The notes under the pieces: generated by a model
Seen by the model: only the letters and a program-made list of their open reading frames with translations
Database searches by the model: none
What the model was told of the DNA's origin: nothing
Source of the DNA: a bacterium
GTDB lineage: Bacteria > Bacteroidota > Bacteroidia > NS11-12g > UBA955
Direction of reading: 5' to 3'
Length of the DNA: 34,566 bases
NCBI GenBank assembly: GCA_029945665.1
Contig: JAQSCZ010000035.1
Span: forward strand, 1-34,566
Translations under genes and position numbers: made by a program
In this document: positions 25,280-34,410 of the stretch, in pieces
Layout of the letters: each line of letters opens with the position of its first letter
How positions within the stretch are numbered: the stretch's first letter is position 1

Positions 25280-25435
25280 CAATTTTAGCGCCTTTGCTAA
25301 ACTTAATTCAGACGAATTTTTCCTTATTTCAGGTTAATTTTCCTTGTTTCAGCCTTTCAAACAATTGCTTCGGAATGGCGCTATTGCCTGTTAGAGTAGC
25401 CTCACCCAATTTTGCTTCAACAAAATAAAAACAAT

Positions 25436-25999
25436 ATGGATGTATTAAACATGGCATTAAAATTCGGAGGCGTTATCTTATTAAGTGATTTCTTAACGGG
25501 CTGTGCTCATTTTTGGATGGACCAATATGGAAGAGAAAATATGCCCGTGATTGGCAAATTTGTGGTGGAGGTAAATATTTTGCACCACAAAAATCCGCGG
25601 CACCTTTGTAAAAACAATTACATACAACTTACATGGACCAGCTATGTTTTTGGTGCATTACTTTTAATTTTTGAATACCTAATATTGGGCGGTATAGGTT
25701 GGGGCGGACTATTATTGGTTGTGTACGGCAGCCAAGCCAACCTAATTCACAAATGGACCCACCAAACTAAAAAAGAGAATGGTCAATTAATTACTTGGTT
25801 GCAAGATTATCATATTATTCAAAGCATCCCACACCACAGGTTTCACCATGCTGCACCTTTTGATGCCCATTTTTGCATCCTTACCGATTGGCTGAATCCT
25901 GTACTAGAAAAAACCAAATTTTGGCAAGGAGTTATTGCTTTTTTTCAACTCTTTGGCATTCAACCAGTGGCAGGACAAGCTGTAAGAAAAAATGTGTAA
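25436..25999 (+). CDS. CarF/TMEM189-family lipid desaturase (plasmanylethanolamine desaturase-like)
   Basis: The 187-residue membrane protein carries the histidine-box pattern of the PF10520 lipid desaturase family: CAHFWMDQYG (His25), HHKNPRH (50-56), HKWTHQ (105-110) and HHRFHH (133-138), plus His145. Hydrophobic segments lie at about 10-25 and 68-102. Characterised members (Myxococcus CarF, human TMEM189/PEDS1) introduce the vinyl-ether bond of plasmalogens. The fit is good, but the exact substrate here is inferred. ATG 25436 is preferred over an in-frame TTG at 25412. TTG-N20-CAATTTTG upstream is a possible promoter. Confidence 0.88.
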   Translation: MDVLNMALKFGGVILLSDFLTGCAHFWMDQYGRENMPVIGKFVVEVNILHHKNPRHLCKNNYIQLTWTSYVFGALLLIFEYLILGGIGWGGLLLVVYGSQANLIHKWTHQTKKENGQLITWLQDYHIIQSIPHHRFHHAAPFDAHFCILTDWLNPVLEKTKFWQGVIAFFQLFGIQPVAGQAVRKNV

Positions 26000-26080
26000 A
26001 CTCTGATTGAAAATTCCATTAATAAAAAATACTGACCTGTTTTAAATGTTTTAAAGGTATTCAAATTAAACGGCATAAAA

Positions 26081-26199
26081 CACCCCGTGATGTAAAAACC
26101 CTGCCGAGATTACATAAAAAAAAACCTGAAGTTTAATTTCAGGGTTTTTCTGTCACGGGGTGGAAGTATTCGGCAGAATGTCGAACTTTATGGAAAATT
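26081..26199. repeat. Nested-hairpin element, copy 1
   Basis: The outer arms CACCCCGTGA (26081-26090) and TCACGGGGTG (26153-26162) are perfectly complementary. An inner A/T-flanked CCTGAA..TTCAGG stem lies between. It ends in a tail GGTGGAAGTATTCGGCAGAA followed by TGTCGAACTT. Nearly identical in layout to copy 3 (26735-26853). Confidence 0.85.
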
Positions 26200-26267
26200 G
26201 CGTTTAGTTGGAAAATACTGCCCCGTGTTAGAGATTTTCGCTGTGCTCAAATCACAACACAGGACAA

Positions 26268-26340
26268 CTAAAACAAAATCCCGCACTTTGGGTGCGGGAA
26301 TGTTTTAGTAAGTGGTGGCAATGCGCGAAATGTCGAACTT
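26268..26340. repeat. Nested-hairpin element, copy 2 (different stem, same tail)
   Basis: The outer arms ACTAAAACA (26268-26276) and TGTTTTAGT (26301-26309) enclose CCCGCAC-tttgg-GTGCGGG. The tail GGTGGCAATGCGCGAAATG then TCGAACTT (26313-26340) matches the other copies. It ends at the restored stop codon of the GIY-YIG pseudogene (26339-26341). Confidence 0.8.
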
Positions 26341-26644
26341 ATTCTAGTGATATTGTTTCTTTGGGTATTTTGTAACCTAATGAAGTCAGAGTATAATTTA
26401 GCATTAATTTTAAAGCTCGTTTCCCTTTGGAAGATTTAAAATACTTTTCCCTTTAAATGGCATCATCTTTAAATAAATAATATTCAATGAAAATTAGCTT
26501 TAAAGGTCTTCGATGTTGGGTACTTGAGGTTCCTCCATCATTATGGTTATCGATTCTTTTATTTATTTCTGTTGTAAATCCAACATACAAATGATGGTCC
26601 TTTTCACTAAAAAGAACATTTACTGCGTAAGGCAATAAATTCAT
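26339..26644 (-). pseudogene. GIY-YIG nuclease-family gene broken by one nonsense codon
   Basis: Reading from ATG 26644, the product VNVLFSEKDHHLYVGFTT, then NKRIDNHNDGG and FIEYYLFKDDA matches the small single-domain GIY-YIG family (YVG half of the motif, catalytic Arg in NKR, later Glu). The frame meets TAA at 26453-26455, but the same frame continues as REKYFKSSKGKRALKLML and on to a stop at 26339-26341. This is exactly the family's C-terminal pattern (xREKYFK..KGKRxLK). A single AAA-to-TAA change explains it. The first half of the GIY motif is weak (AVNV in place of YYVYV). It is flanked by hairpin copies 2 and 3. Confidence 0.85.
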
Positions 26645-26734
26645 AGTTTTAAGTGGCAATATAATTCAAATAACTTAAATTAAAAGTGGACCCATGATAG
26701 ATCCCTCGCAGAGCCTCGGGAAAATCACGGGTCA

Positions 26735-26853
26735 CACCCCGTGACGTAAAAACCCTGCCGAAATTACATAAAAAAAACCCTGAAAATAATTTCAGGGTTT
26801 TTTCTGTCACGGGGTGGAGGCAATGAGCGAAATATCGAACTTTTTGGAAAATT
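26735..26853. repeat. Nested-hairpin element, copy 3
   Basis: The outer arms CACCCCGTGAC (26735-26745) and GTCACGGGGTG (26806-26816) pair perfectly over 11 bp. The inner stem AAAAACCCTGAAA-ataa-TTTCAGGGTTTTT is also perfect. The tail GGTGGAGGCAATGAGCGAAA then TATCGAACTT follows. The DUF2971 gene ends 5 bp beyond. Confidence 0.85.
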
Positions 26854-26857
26854 AAAT

Positions 26858-27706
26858 TTAGTGAATATCAATTACTTGTATAGAATTATCAATGTCATTA
26901 TGACGGATAGTTTTTATGACAACATTTGGTAAAATGGTTTTAATCAATTCAATCAAACCAATCTTCTCATTTTGAGGCATTAGGTCACCAATTATTACCT
27001 CGGAGAATGTAGGAATAGGAACTTTAATTTGGCGCTCAGTAATGGCTACAATATCATGGTCCCAGAATTTGTAACATCTATATTCCTTTTCAAATGCCCA
27101 TTTTTTTTCTTTGCAATAAACTTGTATACTATGCTCTATGTCAGGATTTTCAAAAGGATGTAATTTGGGAATTTCATCTAAATATTGCACCTCACCTCCA
27201 CCAGTAGAGGTAATCGAAAAAAGCATTTTACTATTAAAACCAACACAGAATCCGGTACGATTTAATGAATATTTGTTCCACATGTCGATATTATCGGGAA
27301 CTGCGGTAACACTTAAAACACCAACCCTAGAAAAATAACGTTGCATGTGTTCCTGATTCACTTTTTTTACATATTCTTTATCTCTGATAGGAGAATGCTT
27401 TGACCAATAGGAAGCCCATTGGAGATGTTCTAAAGGAGTATAGTATGGATTTTTACTTAATGATTCTTCAATAAAATGCTTTAAAATATCGTCTTCAGTT
27501 AGTAACGAATAATCTGTTGGTAATTTACAGTCTAAAGAATCTTCAAAATCTGCGGGTGAGCTAAAAAAGATTTCTTGTCTAGTTATAAGTTTTAAATGAA
27601 ATGGATTAGAAATATCCCTATACTTATAAACCAAAGTCGGTAAATTTTGTAATTCATGCACTGAAGCAACGAATTGTTTCTTAATATTAATATCTAAGGG
27701 TATCAC
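26858..27706 (-). CDS. DUF2971 family protein
   Basis: The 282-residue protein shows the DUF2971 (PF11185) landmarks: an early LVYKYRDI, FFSSPADFEDSLDC, VGVLSVTAVPDNIDMWNKYS followed by GFCVGFNS, and KKWAFEKEYRCYK. Function of the family is unknown. Members are typically accessory-genome genes. The start is GTG, as no ATG is available and a TAG lies three codons upstream. It begins 19 bp after the RCC1 gene on the same strand and is probably co-transcribed with it. It ends next to a hairpin element, in keeping with an accessory island. Confidence 0.85.
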   Translation of the reverse strand: MIPLDINIKKQFVASVHELQNLPTLVYKYRDISNPFHLKLITRQEIFFSSPADFEDSLDCKLPTDYSLLTEDDILKHFIEESLSKNPYYTPLEHLQWASYWSKHSPIRDKEYVKKVNQEHMQRYFSRVGVLSVTAVPDNIDMWNKYSLNRTGFCVGFNSKMLFSITSTGGGEVQYLDEIPKLHPFENPDIEHSIQVYCKEKKWAFEKEYRCYKFWDHDIVAITERQIKVPIPTFSEVIIGDLMPQNEKIGLIELIKTILPNVVIKTIRHNDIDNSIQVIDIH

Positions 27707-27725
27707 TAAGTTCTAGGATTATACC

Positions 27726-29135
27726 TTATTGAACCACAATCTGCCTATTGTAAACAATCCTTCCATCAAAAATTCTTACCAAATATACGCCCTTGGGAGA
27801 ATTAGAAAGGTCAATTTTATTAGAATAACTTTGATTTAAGACCATTTCACCAATAGAATTGTATATTTCATATCTCATTTCATTTAGGACACCATTATTA
27901 GATATAGTAAACGTACCATTTGAAGGGTTCGGGTAAATTGAAACTGCCAAATCCTTATAATTGGTTTCGACTTCAGAAGAAACTGAGCATAATCCACTAA
28001 CCATTACTGGAGTGCTTTTACAATTACATCCAGTTCTATTGGTTGTGCCATCACCAAGCTCTCCATCATAGTTAAATCCCCAAGCCCAAACTGTGCCATC
28101 GCTTTTAAGGGCTAATGCATGGTTTCCGCCACTTGCTATATCCGTTACACTTGATAGTCCATTTGGAAAAGGTTCTATTTTATCAATATTAGTTCCATCA
28201 CCTAATTGTCCGTTAATATTAACACCCCAAACCCAAACAGATTTGTCGTTTTTTAAGGCAACCGAATTTTCATTTACTGCTTCTATTGCTATTATATTTG
28301 ATAGATTGTGAACCTGAACAGGACTAGTTTTGCATAAACAACCTGCCTTATCCTTTGTGCTATCACCAAGTTGACCATAAAAATTATTTCCCCAAGCCCA
28401 AACTGTTCCATCATTTTTTAGTGCAAGGGAATGTTTACCATATCCTGCTGAGATTGCCTTTATGTTTACCAATAAATTCACTTTAGTGGGAATTATTTTA
28501 TTGTTTATCGTGCTATCTCCTAAAGAACCGGATGAATTGTCGCCCCAAGCAAATACAGTTCCATCATTCTTTAAAGCAAGAGAATATTTATTACCCCCAG
28601 AAATAGCAATAATACTATCTAGTCCATAGACCTTTACAGGAATAGATTTGTCAATTTTACTACTATCCCCTAATTGACCTAAGTTATTTGCACCCCAAGT
28701 CCAAACAGTGCCATCATTTTTCAAGACAAGTGAATGGTCAGCACCACATGATATAGCCTTAATTTGGGTTAGATTATTTATTATTTTAGGACTAATATTA
28801 TTATTATCTCCCCAAAACCACACTGTATTGTCGTTTTTTAATGCTAGAGAATGCTTATTACCACCAGATATTGCAATAATACCTTTTAGGTTATTAACTT
28901 TTGCAGGGGTTGTCTTATCAACCCTAGTGCTATCACCAAGCTGACCATAGAAATTATATCCCCAAGCCTTTACGTTGCTATCATTGCAAATTGCAAAAGA
29001 AAAAGAAGCGCCACCAGCAATTTTCTGTGCATTGATTGTTGCTGGAAAAAAAAACACTAATCTAAATATGACCAATATGCCTGAAATTGTTTTCAGCTTA
29101 TTATCGAATTTTAGGGAGTAAACATTTGTTAACAT
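27726..29135 (-). CDS. T9SS-secreted RCC1-repeat beta-propeller protein
   Basis: The 469-residue protein starts at ATG 29135. A longer TTG start overlaps the promoter box. A hydrophobic export signal (ISGILVIFRLVFFFPATINA) is followed by seven RCC1-type repeats such as VKAWGYNFYGQLGD, VWTWGANNLGQLGD and VWAWGFNYDGELGD, enough for one seven-bladed propeller. The second blade is shortened (VWFWGDNNN, no GQLGD). The last 80 residues (AVSIYPNPSNGTFTI, ending IVYNRQIVVQ) form a T9SS type A sorting domain. Location is therefore cell surface or secreted. Ligand unknown. Confidence 0.92.
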   Translation of the reverse strand: MLTNVYSLKFDNKLKTISGILVIFRLVFFFPATINAQKIAGGASFSFAICNDSNVKAWGYNFYGQLGDSTRVDKTTPAKVNNLKGIIAISGGNKHSLALKNDNTVWFWGDNNNISPKIINNLTQIKAISCGADHSLVLKNDGTVWTWGANNLGQLGDSSKIDKSIPVKVYGLDSIIAISGGNKYSLALKNDGTVFAWGDNSSGSLGDSTINNKIIPTKVNLLVNIKAISAGYGKHSLALKNDGTVWAWGNNFYGQLGDSTKDKAGCLCKTSPVQVHNLSNIIAIEAVNENSVALKNDKSVWVWGVNINGQLGDGTNIDKIEPFPNGLSSVTDIASGGNHALALKSDGTVWAWGFNYDGELGDGTTNRTGCNCKSTPVMVSGLCSVSSEVETNYKDLAVSIYPNPSNGTFTISNNGVLNEMRYEIYNSIGEMVLNQSYSNKIDLSNSPKGVYLVRIFDGRIVYNRQIVVQ

Positions 29136-29150
29136 AATTTTAAAGAAAAA

Positions 29151-29158
29151 CAAAATTA
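29151..29158 (-). promoter_or_regulatory. -7 promoter box of the RCC1 gene
   Basis: TAATTTTG on the minus strand is a perfect TAnnTTTG, 15 nt before ATG 29135. No clear -33 element. Confidence 0.4.
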
Positions 29159-29473
29159 CTTAATTTAGTTAAGATAAACTATTTGTGGTCTGAGGAGCAT
29201 TGATAAATATCTTCCATTTAAAATTAATTTTTATTGATAATCAGCTTATTAGCTAAATAATTGGTCTTTTCTTGGTTAACATAGCGGTTTTTTTAATGAA
29301 TTTAGTTATTCTTGTTTTAGAGTTAATCAATTTTTTTTTAAATAAAATGGATTATTGAGTTAATTTGATACTGTTAAGAATCAGTATTACCAATATATAA
29401 TATTACAAAACCGCAGCATTTTGTTTTATTTTATTAATAAGTTAAAGATACACTTATATAAAAATAAATAAAA
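29159..29473. other. Divergent intergenic region between two T9SS genes
   Basis: About 315 bp of AT-rich sequence without an ORF between the RCC1 gene (minus) and the beta-helix gene (plus). It must hold the upstream parts of both promoters. I found no exact TTTG-N19-TAnnTTTG for the plus-strand operon. Confidence 0.4.
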
Positions 29474-31357
29474 ATGAAACAAAAATTACAACCTGATTCT
29501 GCCTATTTTAAATTAATCTTCTTCTTTTCATTAATTTTTCTTAGTACTAACACTCTTAAGGCATTAATAAACATAAGTGTCAATACACACTGGCACTCTG
29601 GCAATTTGCCTCCAACTTCACTAGGTAATGATTATCGAACTGGAATATTTATTCAATCAAATGTGGAATTGATTATTGATGGGAGGAGTTTGGCAATGAA
29701 TACTGGCACTACAATTGAATTGGATTTAGGAGCACATTTAAGATTAGTAAACAATACAATCATTACATCGTCAAGTCCAGGCACTAATGTTACATGGAAT
29801 GGTATTTTGGCAACTGGTGATTTACTTAATCACTTTATTCAAGAACCTTACACAACCATACTTGATGATACTACTGCATGGCAAGGTATAATAAATCCTG
29901 ATGAAACATATGTAGGAATTTTCAATTCAACAATTTCAAGTGCTTATTATGGTGTTTATTCTGACCGAGGGGCAATTGTTAGAGCAAGAAATTCTACGTT
30001 TTCAGATAATGGAACAGGTGTTTATATAAAGTATAGTATTAATGAAAAATGTGCTACTTATTTTATGGATTGCAATTTTTTATGGACAAAAACTAATTCC
30101 AATCTTGTTCAAACTAATTTAACTGGAATATCGCTTGAAAATTCAAATAATATTAATATTGGTGGATGCACTTTTACAAATAATGATGTTGGGCTTCATT
30201 GCACTGATGAGAGAGGAACAGGGATAAAGGCTGCCGGGGCAAGTTTTAATCTTTCTAAAAGTGGAAATACTTTCTGCAAAGACGCACTGTATTGTTTTGA
30301 AAATTGTTATCAATCTGGAAGTCCCACTCCAGTAAGTCAATCCAATTCATTTACAAATCTTTCAAAAGGAATTGAGGTAACCCAAGGACCGGGGTCCAGT
30401 TTTAGATGGGCTTATGTAGCTAGACAATCTGTATTCCAAGATAATTTCATTGCAATTTCTTCTAATAGTACAGAAAACTCTAAAGTTTATAAATGTACAT
30501 TTAGCGGTAGTAGAAGTGCGTTAGCATATTTCTTTAATACAACCTGTCTAACAAGTACTACAATGATAAATCATATTATATTTACTGATGACCTTGACTG
30601 GGAGGCTTACGATAATACATTTAGCTTTACTGGTGCTTATATAAATCATATAAAAGCTCCAGGTTACACTTTTGCCCAAAGTAGAATTCAAATGAATACA
30701 TTTACTAATTCCAACACATCTACAGTTGCCTCAAATCAAGTAAATGGAATTTACGTTTCTAATACGAATGCATATATGGAAATATATTGCAACACATTCA
30801 CAAATATGGGAACAGACATTAATTTAGTTGCAGGAGGAACTGTTATAGACCCATTGGGCAGCAATACTTTACCTGCTGAAAATGTTTTTTCTTCAATACT
30901 TGTGGGTAGATATAGAATTGATAACTCAGCAAATCCATCTATGAATTATTTCTATAATTCAACCAAAGGAACTTCTCACCGCCCTTTATTTCCGACATCC
31001 TCTATTTCAGTTTTTGAAACAGGTGTCGCTCCTTCTCAAGAAAGAAATTGTTCCCTAAAGTGCTATAAGTTTTATACTACGCCTGTGAAAAAGCATAATT
31101 ACTATGATTCCTATTTTAAGATTTATCCAAATCCAGCGGATAATCAGCTTAATTTGTCATCAGAATTTAACTTGATAAAATCTGTAATTATATATAACTC
31201 ATTAGGACAGGTTGTTTATAATTTTAGTGATGAAACTAATTCAAATCTCCATCAAATAGACGTTTCAAACTTAAATAATGGAATATACCAACTAATGGTT
31301 CTTACTCCTTTTGGAACTACCATATCTAAGAAGATAATTATCACTCATATTAAATAA
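29474..31357 (+). CDS. T9SS-secreted right-handed parallel beta-helix protein
   Basis: The 627-residue protein has an N-terminal export signal (FKLIFFFSLIFLSTNTLKA). A long region of short repeated strands follows, with asparagine/serine-rich turns (VRARNSTFSDNGTGVYI, ISLENSNNINIGGCTFTNND), typical of right-handed parallel beta-helix (pectate lyase-like/NosD-like) folds. The C-terminal 80 residues (FKIYPNPADNQLNL, ending KKIIITHIK) are a T9SS type A sorting domain. No lyase active site could be identified, so it may be structural or adhesive. Its TAA overlaps the ATG of the next gene by one base (TAATG). Confidence 0.88.
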   Translation: MKQKLQPDSAYFKLIFFFSLIFLSTNTLKALINISVNTHWHSGNLPPTSLGNDYRTGIFIQSNVELIIDGRSLAMNTGTTIELDLGAHLRLVNNTIITSSSPGTNVTWNGILATGDLLNHFIQEPYTTILDDTTAWQGIINPDETYVGIFNSTISSAYYGVYSDRGAIVRARNSTFSDNGTGVYIKYSINEKCATYFMDCNFLWTKTNSNLVQTNLTGISLENSNNINIGGCTFTNNDVGLHCTDERGTGIKAAGASFNLSKSGNTFCKDALYCFENCYQSGSPTPVSQSNSFTNLSKGIEVTQGPGSSFRWAYVARQSVFQDNFIAISSNSTENSKVYKCTFSGSRSALAYFFNTTCLTSTTMINHIIFTDDLDWEAYDNTFSFTGAYINHIKAPGYTFAQSRIQMNTFTNSNTSTVASNQVNGIYVSNTNAYMEIYCNTFTNMGTDINLVAGGTVIDPLGSNTLPAENVFSSILVGRYRIDNSANPSMNYFYNSTKGTSHRPLFPTSSISVFETGVAPSQERNCSLKCYKFYTTPVKKHNYYDSYFKIYPNPADNQLNLSSEFNLIKSVIIYNSLGQVVYNFSDETNSNLHQIDVSNLNNGIYQLMVLTPFGTTISKKIIITHIK

Positions 31358-34161
31358 TGCTTTTTTTTAGGTGGTTTAAAATATGTCTCATATTTGTTTG
31401 GGTAAATAACATTTTTACCCAAACCAATAATTTTTGGAATAATTACGAACAAGGTTTTTCTTTTAACGTTTCTGGTAATTTAAAATATCATATTGGTTTA
31501 ACCAATGATTACTCTAGTACAAACAACTTATCTATTGCTGATTTTAATGGATTGCCTTTGCTTTATACCAATGGTAGTAATGTTTATAACTTTAAGAATG
31601 AATTAATACCTAATGGTGTGGGGTTAAAAAGTTATTTCAATAATTTTAATAGCAGCTATTTTTTAACGCTTGATACTAGTAATTTCCTTATGTATGGTAA
31701 TGGCCCAAGTACAAACACAAAAAAATACATAAATGATAGTTTAATATATTACTCTTACATTAAAAGGGATTTCTCAGTTTTAGAACGGTTTTCAATCCCT
31801 CCCAATAAAAAGAATATTCTACTTCATTTTAATTCAAGTATTTTATGTATTACAACTTGCCGGGATAATGATGCACAACCCATAATGGTGTTTCGCACGA
31901 AAAAATATTTTTATTCATATAAGATTGCAACTGGGGGCAATTTCAAAATTTTGGACAGTTTGTATTATCCAGAAAATAAAATAATACCTGATAGTCTTAA
32001 CTTGAATCCATTGCTTGTAACTAATGGTGTTTTTTCTGAAATGCAATTATCTAATAACGGTGAGTTCATTGCCTTTAACGATTTATATGCATTTTCAATA
32101 AAACATTTGAGTGAATTGTATTTTGCATCAAATAATAGATTTATAATGACTTTTGATAAACAAACGGGCAAATTCGGTAGTCCTAAAATGATTAGCACCT
32201 TTTTTTGGCATAAATTCCTGACCCCATTTAAAAATAATAATTATTATGATGGGTTCTGCTTTTCACCCAATGATAGTTTTTTATATTATCATGATGTTTT
32301 TTATGACCTTGGTACTAGATGGAGTACCCATGAAGATTTATACCAATATGATGTATATGGCAATGCCTCTCCTCAATTGATTTATAAGAATATTACAAAA
32401 AATGCAAATAATGTTATATTATCTTTAAATCACTTAGGGGAATTGTTTTTCTTTAATCGTTCAGTTTCAGGAAGCCAAGTATATCTTAATAAAATAAAGC
32501 AACCTAATAACAAATACCCGCAATGTGCTATTCAATTGCAATCAGAGACCGTTAGTACAACTGTTTCAATACAACCTGAATTAATTAATCAACATTTATA
32601 TGATTATATCAGGACAGCCAAACAGGTCAGATACGATTGTGTGGCTAAGGTTGACTATAAAAACAAAAGCCAAACATGGATAGGGTTTACAGATTTTACA
32701 TGGCATATAAAAAATGATAAAGGTGGCATGGATTATTATAAATCTTTTGAGCCACCTCAATTGATTTATACAAAAAACGGGGATTACCCTGTTAAGCTTT
32801 TTGCATACAGTCCAAAGGGTAAAGGTTGTGGAGAATGGTTCATTGATACAATTAAAATTCGTATCCCTGAAAAACCAATTGCAAATTTCTATGCAAAGGA
32901 CAGTATTGTATGTCGTTATACAGGTTTACAATTCATTAATTACAGCAATGCAAAAGATACGATTAATAACAACTACGTTTGGAGTTTCGGAGATGGTAAT
33001 ACAAGTACAGAGAAAAGTCCTTCACATGTTTATACAAGTCCAGGAACTTACACTGTAATCTTATTCTATCGTAATGGCTATTGTGATAGCACTTTGACAA
33101 AGAACCAATATATAAAAGTAGTTGATGCCCCTAAACCCGGGTTTAGTGCACTATATAAGCAAGGTTGTTCACCTTTTACGGCAAATTTCACTGATTCCGT
33201 TACCCTCAATGTCAAGCAAAAGGATTATTACTTCTCAGATGTTAAATTATGGCAGAATATCACCAATCCTAAATTTATCCATACTTTTAATACTGAAGGC
33301 GTTTACAAAGCTGTACAAAGGCTTACTGGCTATTCGGGTTGTGTTATCCAAACCGACTCTGTAATTTTCAATATTTCGAAAGGTCTAACAATGTCAGATA
33401 CATTAAATATCTTTAATTCATCTGTTGAGAACAAACATGCTGTAATTCATTGGAATAGGCATGATGCAGCAGTAAAGTATCAATTATTTAAGGATGGAAA
33501 GCCTTACATACAGCAAAAGGATACCTTTTTTAATGAAACCACACCATATTTAAAAGATGCGGTTTATACTGTCACAGGAATTGATAGCTGTGATAATCAA
33601 AGTTCAACAGGTAGATTAGGAAAGCCAATGCTTTTGCATGGCAATTTAATTGGTAATAATGAAGCGTCTGTTATCTTTTTTTCACCATATCAACAATGGA
33701 AGGGGACTGATATTACCTACAAAATTCAGAAATTAATTAATAATAATTGGTTAATCATCAATAGTGAGAAAGTAAATGCTCCATACCACGATGACCAATT
33801 TTTAAATAAGACTGAACTACAAGCCTGTTATCGAATTGAGGCTTTTGAAAACTCTCAACCTGCTTTGCTATCTCACAGCAATGAATTATGTATTCCTTAC
33901 ATCCCTACATTATTTATACCAACAGCATTCAGCCCGAATAATGATTTAGTAAATGATGTATTTGATATAACTGGGTTTGGAATAGAAAAATACACTTTTA
34001 CTGTTTATAACCGTTGGGGGCAAAAAGTTTTTAATGGAATAGATAAACAAAGTTGGGATGGTAGCAATGCATCGGAAGGTATTTATCTCATTTTAATTGA
34101 ATATACTACTAACGAAGGCCTGAATCTTGTCCAAAGAGTTAACGTTACACTCATAAAGTAA
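31357..34161 (+). CDS. PKD-domain protein with gliding-motility/T9SS type B C-terminal domain
   Basis: The 934-residue protein begins with a signal peptide (FFRWFKICLIFVWVNNIFT). Residues about 30-400 are unclassified but propeller-like, with phrases such as FCFSPNDSFLYYHD. One clear PKD domain lies at about 514-588 (VWSFGDGNTSTEKSPSHVYT), and further Ig/fibronectin-like segments follow. The last 85 residues (FIPTAFSPNNDLVNDVFDI, YNRWGQKVF, WDGSN) are the gliding_CTERM / T9SS type B sorting domain. The ATG overlaps the previous stop (TAATG), so both are translated from one mRNA. They probably form a surface assembly. Type B proteins often need a partner or PorP-like anchor, and none is seen in the window. 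Confidence 0.9.
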   Translation: MLFFRWFKICLIFVWVNNIFTQTNNFWNNYEQGFSFNVSGNLKYHIGLTNDYSSTNNLSIADFNGLPLLYTNGSNVYNFKNELIPNGVGLKSYFNNFNSSYFLTLDTSNFLMYGNGPSTNTKKYINDSLIYYSYIKRDFSVLERFSIPPNKKNILLHFNSSILCITTCRDNDAQPIMVFRTKKYFYSYKIATGGNFKILDSLYYPENKIIPDSLNLNPLLVTNGVFSEMQLSNNGEFIAFNDLYAFSIKHLSELYFASNNRFIMTFDKQTGKFGSPKMISTFFWHKFLTPFKNNNYYDGFCFSPNDSFLYYHDVFYDLGTRWSTHEDLYQYDVYGNASPQLIYKNITKNANNVILSLNHLGELFFFNRSVSGSQVYLNKIKQPNNKYPQCAIQLQSETVSTTVSIQPELINQHLYDYIRTAKQVRYDCVAKVDYKNKSQTWIGFTDFTWHIKNDKGGMDYYKSFEPPQLIYTKNGDYPVKLFAYSPKGKGCGEWFIDTIKIRIPEKPIANFYAKDSIVCRYTGLQFINYSNAKDTINNNYVWSFGDGNTSTEKSPSHVYTSPGTYTVILFYRNGYCDSTLTKNQYIKVVDAPKPGFSALYKQGCSPFTANFTDSVTLNVKQKDYYFSDVKLWQNITNPKFIHTFNTEGVYKAVQRLTGYSGCVIQTDSVIFNISKGLTMSDTLNIFNSSVENKHAVIHWNRHDAAVKYQLFKDGKPYIQQKDTFFNETTPYLKDAVYTVTGIDSCDNQSSTGRLGKPMLLHGNLIGNNEASVIFFSPYQQWKGTDITYKIQKLINNNWLIINSEKVNAPYHDDQFLNKTELQACYRIEAFENSQPALLSHSNELCIPYIPTLFIPTAFSPNNDLVNDVFDITGFGIEKYTFTVYNRWGQKVFNGIDKQSWDGSNASEGIYLILIEYTTNEGLNLVQRVNVTLIK

Positions 34162-34305
34162 CCTATTTCTGGTTCAGAAAATCTTCAATTAGCTTGGAAC
34201 GAAAATCATTTATTTTGTCCCTTTTTCCGAAGGGAATTAGCTATAATAAGAAAAATAACCAGTGTCGAACCTCAGAAATTAATCCTCTATTTTCGTACAT
34301 CGCTT

Positions 34306-34410
34306 ACCTGAAGCAGGTCTTGGTGCAAAAAAAAATCGGAATAACTGATAGTAGTTTCAATTATTCCGATTTGGTGGAAGCAATAGGCAGAATGTCGAAC
34401 TTCTTGGAAT
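34306..34410. repeat. Nested-hairpin element, copy 4
   Basis: A 12-bp perfect stem AAATCGGAATAA (34333-34344) / TTATTCCGATTT (34361-34372) is followed at once by the tail GGTGGAAGCAATAGGCAGAA then TGTCGAACTT (34373-34402). A small ACCTG-aag-CAGGT hairpin (34306-34318) precedes it. Here the tail's reverse complement reads GCTTCCACCA, with a tRNA-like CCA. Confidence 0.75.

Follow-up and report, generated by a model that had tools for sequence, protein, structure and literature searches.

Small modular units with a tRNA-end-like tail, some carrying a GIY-YIG nuclease gene, many of them at tRNA 3' ends, in a genus of Bacteroidota

Free-standing GIY-YIG homing endonucleases of the SegB type are small phage enzymes whose genes lie beside tRNA genes of many isotypes, and an amplification of tRNA segments has been described for SegB (PMC13096335). 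Here we describe a family of small modular units from bacterial chromosomes, four tails of which lie on contig JAQSCZ010000035.1 of assembly GCA_029945665.1 (GTDB lineage Bacteria; Bacteroidota; Bacteroidia; NS11-12g; UBA955). The window, that is, the whole stretch of DNA that was analyzed, comprises positions 1 to 34,566 of that contig. The other described systems that come closest are repetitive extragenic palindromes (REPs), with the REP doublets forming hairpins (REPINs), and miniature inverted-repeat transposable elements (MITEs).

A modular unit with the tail as its right end

The shared tail ends a unit that consists, in order, of a terminator hairpin (A), a second hairpin (B), an AT-rich spacer with or without a GIY-YIG nuclease gene, and the tail itself. 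Near tRNA genes of sister genomes, the tRNA gene comes first, followed by hairpins A and B, then by an AT-rich stretch in which an open reading frame may or may not lie, and finally by the tail and a terminator; a spacer that lacks the GIY-YIG gene is only about 25 to 40 nt long. The window carries such units in tandem at 26081-26842 (tail 3, A, B, GIY-YIG gene, tail 2, A, B, spacer, tail 1, A), where the last A hairpin, of type I, overlaps the CCAC end of tail 1. Tail 4 is isolated and precedes a different terminator. The open reading frame inside the unit encodes a stand-alone GIY-YIG nuclease of about 95 residues, represented by an intact copy in another genome of the genus, G014 (PF01541, E 1.5e-14); the broken copy in the window is 84% identical to an intact relative in G014.

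An earlier note on this DNA had taken each tail together with the adjacent hairpin as the element and had described the stems as different. All four tails are present where it placed them, and copies 2 and 4 indeed differ in their stems, but copies 1 and 3 have nearly the same nested stem (CACCCCGTGA..TCACGGGGTG). The biological direction is that of the minus strand, with each hairpin 3' of its tail. The real unit is larger than the note supposed: the hairpin next to a tail is part of the following unit or of the flank, and the GIY-YIG gene inside the unit had been overlooked.

Sequence and distribution of the tail

Read on the minus strand, the 29-nt tail is AAGTTCGACATTNNGC..ATTGCYTCCAC; the copies end in CCAC or CTAC and contain a T-loop-like GTTCGA. 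The pattern GTGGNNGCNNTNNGCNGAATNTCGAACTT, with up to three mismatches, has seven matches in the whole 3.79-Mb genome, and its reversed control has none in the same genome at the same tolerance. The T-loop likeness is real in sequence, yet the tail is not a tRNA. The distance from TTCGA to the terminal AC is 21 nt, versus 16 nt in tRNA-Met (a comparison by eye), and no T-stem is evident, which bears out the long spacing and missing stem pointed to earlier. ARAGORN, whose tRNA calls depend on a cloverleaf, reports no tRNA in the window; no Rfam family reaches its gathering score there, and the tail alone barely folds.

A 27-nt version of the tail occurs at 21 places in 10 of the 17 genomes of the genus, one of these places (in G006) being weak, with eight mismatches to the full tail. 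A longer version was found in 6 of the 17 genomes and in none of 42 outside the genus, so that among the 59 genomes searched the tails are confined to one genus. Copy 1 had no blastn match among phage sequences, and a scan of viral contigs with the tail gave no match. Two other identities were considered. Read as codons (V E A I. R M S N F), the tail does not vary mainly at third codon positions, and this identity was dropped on inspection by eye; an integron attC site was set aside in the same manner.

Many units lie at tRNA 3' ends

A tRNA gene lies on the same strand within 500 nt upstream of 7 of the 21 tail places, against 0.06 expected. Among the small GIY-YIG sites of the genus, 21 of 43 have an intact tRNA within 400 nt upstream, against 0.10 expected; both expectations assume 36 tRNAs in 3.0 Mb. 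The 43 sites are what was examined among 76 GIY-YIG domain matches, after 29 in frames of 461 amino acids or more were set aside and 4 short ones left out. Several further small GIY-YIG sites follow partial tRNAs. The tRNAs that bear the conserved tail are Met, Arg, Val, and Phe alike, and three units stand in tandem after a formylmethionine tRNA (tRNA-fMet) in G012:C3.

The end of the tail frequently matches that of the tRNA. Ten loci with an intact tRNA were compiled by hand from the loci read, with G012:C3 counted once, and the last 4 nt are the same in 8 of them (shuffle mean 4.5, P 0.012). The pairs are CTAC with CTAC in three of three cases and CCAC with CCAC in five of six, and CCGC occurs once with CCAC, a mismatch. 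With two partial tRNAs included, the count is 8 of 12 (P 0.018). The likeness to a tRNA that the earlier note had sensed was a sound lead, because many units stand at tRNA 3' ends with tails that mostly copy the last bases of the tRNA, but the tail itself is no tRNA.

Elongator tRNA-Met genes occur both with and without the unit. There are 14 such places in 13 of the 17 genomes, and the first 130 nt downstream were read for 13 of them, the place in G016 being left out. The tRNA-Met of G000 is followed by a 149-bp unit and that of G014 by a 495-bp unit with the nuclease gene. Those of G005 and G011 have A and B, with no consensus tail in view within the 130 nt. The remaining nine, G008 and G012 included, have no unit within that distance; among these, G001 has another GIY-YIG gene, and both copies in G007 have a B match 138 nt downstream. 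Pairwise alignments of the right flanks (first 60 nt) of G000, G014, G008, and G012 beat each of 1,000 letter shuffles; the flank is a common type of tRNA terminator.

Other sequences were seen at tRNA ends. In G000:C16:4000-10000 (L179), a 13-nt 3' fragment of tRNA-Phe, CTGGAGGTACCAC, directly precedes an A-B-tail unit without any intact tRNA. In another family of inserts at tRNA 3' ends, a short stretch that is GATCACGCA-like or similar comes after a large hairpin (L261 in G000:C22 and L266 in G000:C68); in these two, 14 nt of the tRNA 3' end are then repeated, and L265, L275, L276, and L281 look similar by eye. Direct repeats like TTTGCATACAATTTGCATACAA follow several tRNA terminators (L263 near 640, in G000:C23, L310, and L314), and may be arm sites of lost integrative elements.

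Hairpins A and B

The B stem covaries strongly. Copies were chosen by their 5' arm and loop with the 3' arm left free, so the pairing is not circular. Across 34 distinct copies in the loci examined, 285 of 306 possible pairs form, while shuffled 3' arms averaged 237 and never exceeded 254 in 2,000 shuffles. In an alignment of 19 rows, a chosen subset of the 34 copies whose figures lean towards pairing, the covariation score was 0.735, against 0.302 for shuffled alignments (0 of 500 reached it). Neither pairs changed on both sides (7 versus 5.2 in shuffles, reached by 33 of 500) nor further pair types (15 versus 16.8, reached by 490 of 500) were in clear excess. A covariance model of B has matches in 14 of the 17 genomes of the genus, 1 to 49 in each, and, elsewhere in the order, in 1 of 91 genomes; the matches include some A hairpins read from the other strand. 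In the genome of the window, 7 of 18 matches are within tRNA or tail units. Two genomes are rich in B, G009 with 49 matches and G007 with 14 (e.g., L418 and L414), and the copies read there, four in G007 and one in G009, have neither A nor tail.

All four folded stretches of hairpin plus tail in the window beat 200 dinucleotide shuffles (z -4.5 to -5.5). The A hairpins hold terminator-like stems, and similar terminators stand after different tRNAs. The type-I A hairpin is the design of B inverted, so A-B resembles an inverted doublet. A covariation count for the A stem had five usable rows and one spurious row and is not relied on. The earlier proposal of a mobile, REP-like repeat is well supported by the covariation of B, the restriction to one genus, and the tRNA-Met genes with and without a unit; its other half, a processed RNA, found no backing from ARAGORN or Rfam.

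The nuclease gene and tandem arrays

In the subfamily of the unit's nuclease, the GIY-YIG domain begins 175 to 188 nt from the tRNA at six loci. Members at E <= 1e-12 occur in 9 of the 17 genomes of the genus, with a best E of 1.2e-16 or lower in each, and in 4 of the 91 other genomes of the order (E 2.2e-13 to 8.0e-13). These four relatives also neighbor tRNA genes, within 60 nt upstream in three cases and 104 nt downstream in the fourth. Across a sample of 149 genomes of the class, the best-scoring GIY-YIG genes are mostly away from tRNAs: 2 of 29 have a tRNA within 600 nt, and 3 of 16 further, hand-picked genes are at tRNAs. In G213:C9:905400-911400 (L448), outside the genus, a single tRNA-Met is nevertheless followed by an array of ten GIY-YIG units that repeat every 457 bp; the first nine periods are identical, and the last 27 nt of the tRNA are repeated after each of the ten genes. 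Another array, G201:C2:233700-236000 (L449), has three tandem GIY-YIG units after tRNA-Leu, with partial tRNA-Leu copies between them.

Features of the window

The positions of the features in the window are given in Table 1. A short lipid-desaturase gene (PF10520) lies nearby, at window positions 25412-25999; its match to the plasmanylethanolamine desaturase CarF was below the cut-off.

Table 1. Tails, hairpins, and nuclease gene of the unit family in the window
Feature	Position	Strand	Evidence
Tail 1, right end of the unit lacking a GIY-YIG gene	26160..26188	-	Pattern match
Type-I A hairpin following tail 1; terminator-like interior within an outer stem CACCCCGTGAT/GTCACGGGGTG	26081..26162	-	Fold of 26072-26188, -37.1 kcal/mol, z -4.5
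B hairpin, 9-bp arms, GTG / CTCT internal loop	26221..26264	-	Covariance model, E 1.5e-12 (itself a seed row)
Type-II A hairpin, ACTAAAAC..GTTTTAGT around CCCGCAC..GTGCGGG	26267..26309	-	Fold of 26268-26340, z -5.5
Tail 2, overlaps the stop codon of the GIY-YIG frame	26312..26340	-	Pattern match
GIY-YIG nuclease gene, one in-frame TAA (pseudogene)	26339..26644	-	PF01541, E 1.4e-11
Degenerate B hairpin of the GIY-YIG unit	26690..26732	-	Read from sequence; no covariance-model match
Type-I A hairpin of the GIY-YIG unit	26734..26816	-	Fold of 26700-26842, z -5.5
Tail 3, located where other loci have a tRNA 3' end; directly after the DUF2971 gene	26814..26842	-	Pattern match
Tail 4, alone	34374..34402	-	Pattern match
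Terminator-like hairpin after tail 4, different sequence	34334..34373	-	Fold of 34328-34402, z -5.5

Origin of the units

We favor, with a modest lean, the reading that the family consists of small modular mobile elements that insert at tRNA 3' ends and behind their own earlier tails. The order of the unit, its placement at tRNA ends, the tRNA-Met genes with and without it, the tandem units, the covarying B stem, and the frequent agreement of the terminal bases are shown; cutting and mobilization are inferred. The GIY-YIG protein may cut and mobilize the unit, as its place inside the unit, the array in G213, and the parallel with phage SegB suggest. The unit with the nuclease of about 95 residues would then possibly be the self-mobile form and the hairpin-only unit a dependent form. 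The GTTCGA and the terminal CCAC or CTAC of the tail would imitate a tRNA 3' end; the nuclease would cut the 3' end of a tRNA gene, perhaps reading the T-loop, and repair would copy the element into the cut site. The terminator in A would end the tRNA transcript, and the tail would offer a new target, so that tandem chains like that of the window could grow.

Several observations weigh against this reading. The chain in the window has no tRNA by ARAGORN. A GIY-YIG gene directly precedes only 5 of the 21 tails, and one of these genes, in G004, belongs to a different subfamily. The last 4 nt disagree at 2 of the 10 intact-tRNA loci and at both partial-tRNA loci checked (G012:C34 and G000:C16). 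For the tRNA-Met right flanks, blastn matches link only G000 with the other three, with none between G014 and G008 or G012; G000 and G014 are the only pair with a long upstream neighborhood in common beyond the tRNA; and in a comparison of 106 tRNA flanks, that of a G014 tRNA-Val ranks highest (30.5), against 27.5 for the G008 tRNA-Met. Because flank matches are sparse and the neighborhood is shared only by G000 and G014, the places lacking a unit are tRNA-Met genes without the unit rather than proven empty alleles. As for B, 11 of the 18 matches in the genome of the window stand alone, with no A or tail within about 190 nt on either side, and G007 has its 14 matches with neither a small GIY-YIG match nor a Y1 match.

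The units might instead be tRNA terminator cassettes, duplicated trailers and terminators that ordinary recombination has carried from one tRNA locus to another, with the GIY-YIG gene as a passenger. The terminator-like stems of A, the similar terminators behind different tRNAs, and the tandem units would all fit, but tRNA-Met genes free of the unit exist, none of the tRNAs read ends like the tail, and the nuclease domain keeps its narrow range of distances from the tRNA at six loci, and we regard this explanation as unlikely. We think it rather unlikely, too, that the tail arose by decay of a tRNA 3' end, as an attachment-site scar of integrative elements that is carried along passively. Its GTTCGA and CCAC or CTAC end suit such an origin, and true partial tRNA copies do exist, matching at 34 of 34 nt after a GIY-YIG gene (G000:C78) and after an A-B pair (G000:C31). 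However, the same tail stands behind tRNA-Met, -Arg, -Val, and -Phe, and the tails matched without gaps are 5 nt longer than the tRNA-Met end; because it is conserved across isotypes and exceeds the tRNA-Met end in this way, the tail is not the local tRNA decaying.

Mobilization of REP-type repeats in trans by a Y1 transposase (REP-associated tyrosine transposase, RAYT) would account for B as a short palindrome and for A-B as a likeness of an inverted doublet. Y1 matches do occur in 12 of the 17 genomes of the genus, and one in G009:C133 is 2.3 kb from a B match, the closest pair among the matches listed. Beyond that pair, though, no Y1 and B matches among those listed lie within 50 kb of each other; G003, G004, G007, and G010 have B with no Y1 match, and G002 has Y1 with no B; and the 19-row alignment of B has no GTAG or CGTC foot tag. 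A RAYT origin is disfavored by these observations, and we judge it improbable. That tail and terminator form a functional small RNA or 3' regulatory element is suggested by some tails lying closely after a stop codon and before a terminator; against this, the tail barely folds, Rfam gives no match, and copy number varies between genomes, which leaves this idea very improbable.

Returning to mobile elements at tRNA ends, a more far-reaching form of that idea is tentative. It would make the family a transposable element without transposase or recombinase, in which the GIY-YIG protein of about 95 residues would read the T-loop of any tRNA gene and cut its 3' end, and repair would install a hairpin-terminator cassette that spares the tRNA; hairpin-only cassettes would use the GIY-YIG protein in trans, and the REP-like hairpins dispersed in these genomes would derive from this element. 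Among the best-ranked matches of a literature search, there was no recognized description of these elements in bacteria, and their novelty rests on that. If the idea is true, the family would be a bacterial-chromosome counterpart of the association of phage SegB with tRNAs, would point to a way for a very small nuclease to carry a cassette from one tRNA gene to another while leaving those genes functional, and would provide a REP-like hairpin family that lacks an evident RAYT transposase with an origin open to test.

Comparison with known systems

The units recall MITEs in their short, gene-free dependent forms, in their unit-like ends, and perhaps in a brief target duplication (the last 4 nt, identical at 8 of 10 loci, or 8 of 12 with partial tRNAs). 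They differ in that no terminal inverted repeats are evident by eye and the ends are unlike, a hairpin on the left and a tail on the right.

The likeness to REPs (PMC3733652) and REPINs lies in hairpin B, which is short, restricted to the genus, conserved in structure, and present in up to 49 matches per genome, and in the resemblance of A-B to an inverted doublet; compensatory changes in a short, many-copy palindrome belong to the same likeness. B differs in having, in place of a GTAG or CGTC foot tag, an invariant GTG and CTCT in its internal loop (in 19 hairpins, besides arm bases), and the bases beyond its arms vary between copies. No directly adjoining RAYT gene was seen among the matches listed, and some B copies lie at tRNA ends within a larger unit.

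With SegB, the units share a small GIY-YIG catalytic domain of PF01541, intact in G014, and the position beside tRNA genes, at about half of the genus sites (21/43 within 400 nt) and at three of four relatives outside it (within 60 nt upstream). They differ from SegB in their residence on bacterial chromosomes and at the tRNA 3' end, in their terminator and REP-like hairpins, in their tRNA-end-like tail, and in the existence of enzyme-less forms.

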